From positions 8,385,473-8,449,472 of the forward strand of contig OZ037770.1 in the NCBI GenBank assembly GCA_964035545.1: a DNA stretch of 64,000 nt, given 5' to 3'. The position numbers and the translations under genes are program-made. Origin of the DNA: Bugula neritina (lineage: Eukaryota > Bryozoa > Gymnolaemata > Cheilostomatida > Bugulidae). The number at the start of each line of letters is the position of its first letter. Within the stretch, counting starts at the first letter, position 1. Below the pieces are notes generated by a model. It saw only the letters and a list, made by a program, of their open reading frames with translations. It was not told the DNA's origin and did no database searches. Positions 40,201 to 43,200 of the stretch are shown in pieces.

Positions 40201-43200
40201 GTTTATGTTGCAGTTGATCATTCCCGGGTCAAACTGCTTCCTGCAGATGAAGAGGAAGGTTCAGACTATATCAACGCTAACTACATGCCGGTAAGTAGAT
40301 GTACTACTATACTGTAAGTAGATGTACTACTATACTGTAAGTAGATGTACTACTATACTGTAAGTAGATGTACTACTATACTGTAAGTAGATGTACTACT
40401 ATACTGTAAGTAGATGTACTACTATACTGTAAGTAGATGTACTACTATACTGTAAGTATATGTACAGTAGTTAGTATATGATGTAACTATATATCCAATA
40501 ATACTATTATGTAATATATATATATATATATATCCAGTAATACTATTATGTAATATATATATATCCAGTAATAATATTATGTAATATATATATCCAGTAA
40601 TAATATTATGTAATATATATATCCAGTAATAATATTATGTAATATATATATATATAATATCCAGTACTACTATACTGTAAGTATGTGTACAGTAGTTAGT
40701 ATTTGATTGTTACACACACAACAGTAACTGAGAGAAATTATGGCTGAGCGATAGAGATATTTTCTTGTATAAACGAAAATGCTTTTGGCGTCAAACAGAG
40801 AGTTTTCAATATTACATAAATCAGTATTTTATGAGTTACCAATATGTCTGACAATATTCAACTTACAAATTAACTAAGCTTGAAAGTTTGAATAAAACCT
40901 CTTTTCTATTTTTTCAGTTTGGTAGTAAATTTGGAAGATTTTTAGTTCTTGAAAACTTTTGCATGGAAAACAATAGTTTGCTAAAAGATTCTTGTTACAG
41001 ACAAAAGCTCGCCACTTGTCTGCACTGAGTGAAGGCATATTTAATTTAGTTGGACAGTATACACGTAAATCTGTTGTTGATTAGACTGGCATACCCGCCT
41101 TCAGGGAGATAGGCAGCTTCTCATTTTACAACTACACTTTTACTTATAGGGCTACACATCAAAGAGAGAGTACATTGCTACCCAGGGTCCTCTACCAGGA
41201 ACCATTGACCATTTCTGGAGAATGATTTGGGAACAGAATGTCACCATGATAGTTATGTTGACTCAACTTATAGAGAGAGGTAAGTATGTTAACTTATAGA
41301 GAGAGGTAAGTATATTAACTTATAAAAAGAGGTAAGTATGTTAACTTATAGAGAGAGGTAAGTATATTGAATTATAGTGAGAGGTAAGTATATTAACTTA
41401 TAGAGAGATGTAAGTATAATAACTTATAGAGAGATGTAAGTATTTAAGTTTTGAGTTAGTTCCAGAACTCAGCCATTTTACTGACTTTAGTGTCGCTTCA
41501 TTCAACTGTAATGTTTAGGACGAAGAAAGTGTGAACAGTACTGGCCAGAAACCCTAGAAGAACCTGCAGCATATGGTGACTTAGTTGTAACTAAGAGAGC
41601 TGAATCTGTTCTTCCAGAATATACCATCAGAATATTTGATATTCAAATGGTAAGTTCTAGTAGCTTACTGTACATGTATGCATTTGACCTATGCTGTTTT
41701 TATAGAGTTGTATTTTATATAATTTATCACTGCATGATAATGTTTTATGTTATAATCCACATGGGGCAGTTTTTGTTCCAAGTATGTTGTCAATTGGACC
41801 ACATTCATTTAGATGAATATTTAGCTCTATAAGTTGTTCATTTGCCTGTGTATATCTAGCTTGAACTGGGCCTCTTCTACCAAATATTATTTCCTTATAT
41901 GAAGTCTCAAACATTCAATTTCAATATTGTAGATCTGAGTATGATTTTTTACAAACTCAATCTCTGTGGGCATCTAGGCTAAACCATGTATAATCTATAT
42001 GCATATATTATCTAGGTCATCCCAGATCTCATCTACACATACAGATATTATCTAGGTCAACCCAGATCTTATCGACGCATACAGATATTATTTAGGCCAA
42101 CCTAAAATAGATATTAACCATAAAGATTTAATTTTATAATTTACTAAAACACTTGTTTGGCCTTGTTTGTTTGGCCACTATGTAACTACAATGTAGGGGT
42201 GTTAACTGGGTTCAGGTTAGCTGCTGCCTCCATATGTAGTCTTATTCCTGCTGACAGGCTGCCAAGATGAGAGCTGTAATTATGTTTCACTTTACTCACT
42301 GGCCTGACTATGGTTGCCCAGGCACTTGCAGTTCTTTGCTTAGTTTCATCACTGACATTAGAAAGAACCTAAACCAGAAGGCATCAGCCCGAGGCCCCAT
42401 TGTTGTACACTGCAGGTAGAGAATTAGCAGTACGCTGCGGTCCTGCTGCTATCTGACATGCTTGTGGACGGCATGGGGTACTTTTCGAGAAACTATGCAT
42501 GAGTAGATTATGTTGTAGTAGCTAGAACATGTTAATGCTCTATAAGTAACCATTCTCTCCAACATGCCATTCACTGCAAGTCACCAACAAATGTATTCAA
42601 AGTGACTCATCAACCAAAATGACTCACTGTTTCGTGTAACTCATTACTCACTCTTAGTCACCGTGTCTCGCTCTCTGAATCACTCTCTCTCAATAACTCA
42701 TACGCAAAGTCACTCTCCTATTGTGTGCTCAGCTAACCACCCTATGACTAACAGGTATAGTGTCTCACTGGTACACCCCAGTTACTCTTACTCTTCTCAG
42801 GTCTCATCTCTGGTTGTGGTTACTTCGTATCAAGTAATCAGTTCCTCACAGCTACTAGCTGCGTCTTATGTGGCCCCACCGTCGGCGAGCGCATGCTTAG
42901 CTCACTGCTTTAGTTACGGCTTATTGCATGCGCCATTCTTACTTTCAGGGGGAGACAACACGCTCTGTGAAACAATTTTTCGTTTCATTCTGGCCGGACT
43001 TTGGCTGTCCAGATAGAACTGAGAGTCTGCTAAACTTAGTGCGTGTTGTCAGAAGCCATATGCGACCCGAAGGTCGGGGCCCGCTGGTAGTGCACTGCAG
43101 GTATTTCCATTCTTCTACCGTAACTGTGGGCTACAAGTGTCTTACATACTCTGTTCAGTTCAGGGGGTGATAACTGCTAACACTTGTTTATAGACTATGT

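Follow-up and report, generated by a model that had tools for sequence, protein, structure and literature searches.

Does a single receptor tyrosine phosphatase gene of Bugula neritina hold two interchangeable versions of its catalytic core, with splicing to choose between them? The question is raised by a stretch of 64,000 nucleotides on chromosome 6 of the B. neritina assembly tzBugNeri2.1 (positions 8385473-8449472, hereafter the window), in which a preliminary description made from the letters alone had marked a tandem pair of exons, 33A and 33B, as mutually exclusive carriers of the WPD loop. Our answer is that this is probably so: the gene would be a receptor protein tyrosine phosphatase (PTP) with a single PTP domain and a fibronectin ectodomain, R3-like, in which 33A and 33B are used one at a time, giving two receptors that have the same scaffold and tail and a different catalytic loop.

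The PTP domain and the tail are encoded on the + strand by exons 29-36, at 39910-44898; the exon numbering is that of the preliminary description, and our exon models cover 29-36. Exon 29 (39910..40000, placed by its splice borders and translation) carries the phosphotyrosine loop region, with KNRW. Spliced translation gives DHSRVKLLP...DYINANYMP for exon 30 (40214..40290) and ...MLTQLIERG for exon 31 (41150..41279), the latter also being matched here by the Pfam profile PF00102. Exon 32 (41519..41649) is common to the A and B forms and ends in phase 0. Then come the A-type WPD-loop exon 33A (42258..42415, 158 nt), a spacer intron of 533 nt (42416..42948) and the B-type WPD-loop exon 33B (42949..43100, 152 nt). 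Exon 34 (43785..43920), again common to both forms, has the remainder of the signature loop, (S)AGVGRTG; exon 35 (44222..44357) has DQYIYIHDC and then the start of the tail; and exon 36 (44813..44898) has the C-terminal tail, ...VKNTEL, and the stop. Upstream, fibronectin type III exons are indicated at 28001..37992 by Pfam fn3 matches in all three + frames and by open reading frames, and a membrane span was judged by eye to lie near 37840-37930.

The catalytic domain is that of a classical (class I) PTP. Against PF00102, where the cut-off is 20.9 bits, the A form scores 284.8 bits and the B form 282.7 bits, covering profile positions 1-233 of 234. Both forms keep WPD, HCSAGVGR and QTEDQY, and with them the WPD Asp, the Cys and Arg of HCX5R and the Q-loop Gln. 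As to the features of an R3-type receptor, within the models of exons 29-36 there is one PTP domain and then a stop, with fn3 upstream and the span placed by eye only. The usual form of the phosphotyrosine loop is KNRY; KNRW is found in exon 29 of the window and in both of the Watersipora proteins described below. Genome-wide there are at least 153 exon-level matches to PF00102 (150 of 285 candidates scored), many of them clustered on chromosomes C1, C3, C5 and C6, which points to a large receptor PTP expansion in B. neritina. The genome as we searched it has 295 contigs and 215.85 Mb; as published, tzBugNeri2.1 has 320 scaffolds and 216.00 Mb (PMC11480708).

Exon 33A lies between the acceptor ctgacag/GCTGCC and the donor CACTGCAG/gtagag, and exon 33B between the acceptor ctttcag/GGGGAG and the donor CACTGCAG/gtattt, the slash marking the border. 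Since exons 29-32 sum to 429 nt, exon 33 starts in phase 0; both versions do so, both are open and GT-AG bordered, and both end two bases past the codon of the catalytic Cys, so that the Ser codon of HCSAGVGR takes its third base from exon 34. When spliced in silico, 32-A-34-35-36 and 32-B-34-35-36 are both open to the stop at 44898, joint inclusion of A and B brings a TGA eight codons past the Cys codon, and skipping of both brings a stop as the 13th codon after exon 32. The preliminary description proves exact to the base in its coordinates, AG/GT borders, phase 0 starts and two-base ends, and right about the 533-bp spacer, the two in-frame joins, the TGA within eight codons and the shift of exon 34 on double skipping. 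Its further claim, that exactly one of the exons can be used, survives in part: the frame allows one only, and frame logic removes wrong products, but that logic alone does not make splicing exclusive.

In other respects as well, the pair looks as mutually exclusive exons should. The two are adjacent, homologous, of similar size (158/152 nt), of the same phase (0 to 2), stop-free and GT-AG bordered, and joint inclusion and double skipping both give early stops, the use of frame breaking as a mark of such pairs being taken from PMC5740500. Searched against all 215.8 Mb of the genome, 33A as the query finds 33B at E = 1.4e-7 and 33B finds 33A at E = 1.7e-7, which chance does not explain. The earlier reading of two homologous exons in a receptor-type PTP gene, both with Trp-Pro-Asp and the Cys, is supported. 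Residues are identical at 20/50 positions (40%), and the nucleotide differences fall at codon positions 1, 2 and 3 in the numbers 19, 21 and 34 over 50 codons, which is a coding pattern. A whole-genome search with the DNA of 42200-43300 found a match only in the window itself. Among at least 51 matches to A and at least 42 to B genome-wide, no other pair of WPD exons less than 1 kb apart was seen by eye; on chromosome 1, there are WPD-exon matches 1.9 kb apart, with other PTP-domain parts matching in between.

The part of the fold encoded by each exon 33 runs from the strand leading into the WPD loop, through the loop and the helix after it, to a strand whose last residue is the nucleophilic Cys, and whichever exon is spliced in would supply the whole of it. 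Products having both exons or neither would meet an early stop and go to removal or truncation. In the predicted model of the B-type Watersipora protein P0123 (25-row alignment; mean pLDDT 75, with blocks of 87-97 over exon 33), the parts are a strand at 214-223, the WPD loop with W226 and D228, a helix at 236-247, and a strand at 257-261 with C261 as the nucleophile. Between A and B, HFTH stands against VSF before the loop and Tyr against Phe after the Asp, and the helix beyond also differs, as the preliminary description had noted. When WPD loops were swapped in the laboratory, the chemistry was nearly unchanged, and loop opening and turnover were shifted via loop dynamics (PMC11058592). From the residue differences around the loop and in the helix, different loop motion, turnover or docking may be expected for the Bugula forms, and we would expect the A and B receptors to be unlike in turnover, in the substrates chosen or in regulation.

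Are both modules found outside this one gene? The A and B forms were searched against 5.8 billion proteins, and the 7991 candidates with the most shared words were scored. Among these, the best match of the A form, 85% over the region, is to a 1257-aa receptor of Watersipora subatra, P0003, which stands for a cluster of 3 sequences bearing the name isoform X1. It has an A-type exon and a tail ending VKNTEL as in the window gene, and Pfam finds in it fn3, PTP_tm and the PTPRJ membrane-proximal domain. The best match of the B form among the candidates scored, at 79%, is to a 390-aa protein model of Watersipora, P0123, which has a B-type exon, its own juxtamembrane part and its own tail; its contig has the same length as that of P0003. 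The look for the duplication in relatives that had been proposed for this locus hence finds both exon types, in the form of two separate proteins.

Between Bugula and P0003, exon A is identical at 33/52 residues (63.5%), with the flanking exons at 89.5 and 91.7%; between Bugula and P0123, exon B is identical at 37/50 residues (74%), with the flanking exons at 77.6 and 80.0%. A maximum likelihood tree of the exon, with 18 rows that include 4 of the 8 paralogue exons discussed below and with about 50 columns, which is a modest data set, groups the A exons together at 97.7/98 and the B exons together at 89/89 (SH-aLRT/ultrafast bootstrap). That both exon types are real coding modules is supported by an independent genome, taken up below, and by this second bryozoan genus. 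An import of exon A from another PTP family had been suspected on account of its matches besides B, which lean to the copies on chromosomes 1 and 5; it was rejected, since the tree joins A with Watersipora A and so makes exon A native to this gene family. A GCP motif common to A and B looked at first like a signature of their family and was dropped as evidence, since it is also in mollusc and spider PTPs.

If two Watersipora proteins answer to the pair, a separate B gene might be sought in Bugula as well. A search of the B. neritina genome with P0123 gave at least 104 matches (106 of 201 candidates scored). Over exon 33, the closest by identity among the matches listed is 33B of the window, at 62% over 66 residues; the others listed have at most 45% identity there, and some longer ones that include exon 34 have higher bit scores. 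Among the matches listed from this whole-genome search there is no sign of a separate B gene, and hence the two Watersipora proteins correspond to two exons of one Bugula gene. Splice choice in one Bugula gene would then do the job of two genes in Watersipora.

Two histories fit this arrangement. In the first, an ancestral gene would have had both exons, and the Watersipora copies would each have kept one, like the duplicates of FYN; in the second, a B gene would have passed its exon B to the Bugula gene and later disappeared. Exon B being about as conserved as its flanks leans to the first, weakly so because exon 33 evolves faster than its neighbors. That a single crossover simply fused an A gene to a B gene was set aside, since downstream of B the tail exons match the A-type and not the B-type Watersipora protein. 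Tentatively, and with rather more doubt than belief, the first history can be extended: the A/B pair would be ancient in cheilostomes, as one receptor gene with two spliced cores, which Watersipora split into two genes, with Bugula keeping the splice choice and spawning an array of paralogues whose exon lacks the catalytic Asp (WPS). If that is true, the WPD exon would be a freely evolving cassette by which a receptor phosphatase is tuned, swapped or switched off while its scaffold is conserved.

A second view of both exons comes from an independent B. neritina draft genome, from Virginia, of the S genotype and made with PacBio and Illumina reads (PMC7576161). In that draft, EB796_011138 (P0139) contains exons 29-32 and most of 33A, and EB796_011137 (P0243) contains 33B, 34, 35 and 36; the tags are consecutive and the contigs are both 163,554 bp, which we take as one. 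The preliminary description had named an assembly error as a way in which its reading could fail. We found nothing in favor of that, and its chance is next to nil, as two independent assemblies, Plymouth and Virginia, contain both exons, the latter apparently on one contig, and as A and B, with their low identity, are no collapsed or repeated copy.

The Virginia draft does not treat the two exons alike. Exon B is identical to that of the window at 50/50 residues, and exon A is changed at 5/43 residues vs 5/311 in the other compared exons (Fisher p 0.003; A vs B p 0.019). The changes are A-V, A-S, I-V, F-Y and L-F, mostly conservative. Furthermore, EB796_011138 loses its frame close to where exon A ends and runs into intron that reads the same as that of the window, likely from a 1-nt difference, a deletion, which is either a sequencing error or a real frameshift. 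The frameshift and the excess residue change argue against equal status of A and B, and exon A may be decaying in some populations. Taken further, this becomes the reading that only one exon is in use and the other is being lost, A being the likelier loser and B having taken over in Bugula. To it also belong the lower conservation of A between Bugula and Watersipora, below its own flanks and below B, although B is compared between different genes, and the weakness of both donors (see below). We judge it unlikely, given that in the Plymouth HiFi genome exon A is fully open, has AG/GT borders and has all catalytic residues, that the five changes are mostly conservative, that indels in the draft may be sequencing errors, and that the full-length Watersipora receptor retains A.

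The annotation of the draft contains a different reading again, in which 33B and 34-36, as EB796_011137, close a short transcript that starts independently of the receptor; the model begins with seven residues from upstream of exon B, MRHSYFQ. That seems very improbable to us. Such a product would be without the rest of the PTP fold, the 33B acceptor is an ordinary one whose phase fits exon 32, and the split of the draft models is explained by EB796_011138 ending after its frame slip. We return, then, to one gene with two alternative cores, and we infer that both splice forms are made.

How would exclusive use come about? By a weight matrix, the donors of 33A and 33B score 1.06 and 1.73, vs 3.75-7.59 for those of exons 29-32, 34 and 35, and by the same matrix they are the third and fourth weakest among 32 WPD-exon donors read, the 32 being those, of at least 51 places, whose locus was read and that have this border. 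Pairing elements in the spacer, which the preliminary description had suggested looking for, did not clearly turn up: for three intron pairs in the one genome, 5, 19 and 26 of 40 shuffles matched or bettered the duplex energy, and the introns around 33A/33B have two weak inverted repeats. Competing intron-intron pairing of the docking/selector type is not clearly beyond shuffles here. Steric crowding of splice sites would need a spacer shorter than the 533 nt seen here. The likely route to exclusivity would be regulated choice by protein factors together with removal of wrong products, and in the class of pairs whose joint use breaks the frame, destruction of the aberrant products is what one expects (PMC5740500). 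On the debit side of exclusive splicing we count the changes and slip of the Virginia exon A, the splitting of the gene in the draft models, the single exon of the paralogues described next, and pairing no better than in shuffles.

Splice sites are also the subject of a separate feature of the locus, a 26-bp tandem repeat of 7.1 copies straight after exon 31 (41265..41447, +), whose unit is exon 31's own 5' splice site (AG/GTAAGT). Exact copies number 5 in the window, and there are 7-20 such sites per whole locus in the 8 paralogue loci (L065-L072). The repeat is a row of ready-made donor sites, and one added unit would shift the frame.

The relatives nearest at hand are eight genes about 80-405 kb away on the opposite strand of the same chromosome (C6:8020000-8347200), counted as 8 exon-31, 8 exon-33 and 8 exon-34 places. 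Each yielded one exon 33, the long intron of the paralogue at 8086874-8098649 having been read outside 8090500-8096000. In place of WPD, the exon has WPS in 7/8 and SLS in 1/8, and the SLS gene also has AGVGC for AGVGR. The general acid is therefore missing, and by these motifs the array of 8 looks like a family of pseudophosphatases.

Exons 31, 32 and 34 of the paralogues, with adjoining intron, have about 78-94% DNA identity to the window, and from 41838 to 43731 of the window nothing aligns in any of the nine loci compared. The paralogue exon 33 (exon C) has 59-61% identity to 33B at the DNA level in 7 exons; it is a long branch near B in the exon tree (62.2/72), and in a tree of the flanks the two paralogues used group with the window gene (97.7/99). 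Further upstream, two paralogues have blocks of about 76-85% from 34405 to 37899, and in these two no blocks were found across 37900-41140, both for matches over 45 bits. Over 34405-43931, comparison of the window with the paralogues (L065-L073, L075, L076) gives a mosaic, with blocks of about 76-94%, introns included, alternating with an unalignable juxtamembrane part and phosphotyrosine loop, WPD exon and tail. Our best guess is that patchy gene conversion which spared the WPD exon would explain the mosaic.

By its probable architecture, the Bugula gene is like the R3-type receptors (human PTPRB, PTPRO and PTPRJ; fly PTP10D), which have a single PTP domain and a fibronectin ectodomain. Among relatives of solved structure, PTPRB is the best of the single-domain chains, and the top chains by whole score are of the two-domain LAR/S types. 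We know of no WPD-loop exon swap in R3-type receptor PTPs. In the open-licence literature, we found no description of such a swap in a classical PTP, although older subscription work could exist, and no papers on bryozoan receptor tyrosine phosphatases. The preliminary description knew of no animal phosphatase described as swapping its active-site core in this way. Its claim needs to be narrowed in that active-site swaps by splicing are already known from FYN and ACP1, and PTPRS is named among genes with mutually exclusive exons; what is new here is that both exons have Watersipora counterparts.

A phosphatase similar in this respect is ACP1, the low-molecular-weight PTP. Its exons 3 and 4 exclude each other, and the loop they exchange is a different one from the WPD loop and stops short of the catalytic Cys. 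Like the Bugula receptor, it is a Cys-based tyrosine phosphatase with a splice-varied loop beside the active site, the isoforms IF1 and IF2 having changed substrate specificity (PMC4322731), but it is a class II enzyme, small and soluble, of a different family. Human PTPRS is a classical receptor PTP listed among human genes with mutually exclusive exons, a listing that does not give the protein region swapped (PMC5740500).

FYN offers a parallel in logic. One of two homologous exons is used (FynB/FynT), each covering part of the kinase active site, and gene duplicates have each kept a single exon (PMC9741552), much as Watersipora has two proteins for the two exons of Bugula. The differences are that FYN is a Src-family kinase with RNA and protein data, that its exchange covers the SH2-kinase linker and the N-terminal part of the kinase domain, and that the Bugula pair is read from DNA. 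For the latter, the exons are real and well bounded with good comparative support for both, and mutually exclusive splicing of a catalytic core is a well-argued hypothesis for them; if it is true, splicing would be the means by which a cell picks its phosphatase catalysis. The sequence of the WPD loop is regarded as setting PTP turnover via loop motion, which has so far been tested on engineered chimeras (PMC11058592). In the PTP1B/YopH chimeras of that work, loop sequence alone alters turnover; they are laboratory grafts of a short loop, in contrast to the two natural, whole strand-loop-helix-strand modules of Bugula, which, on an identical scaffold and each with a counterpart in another species, would provide a clean natural test of the same idea.
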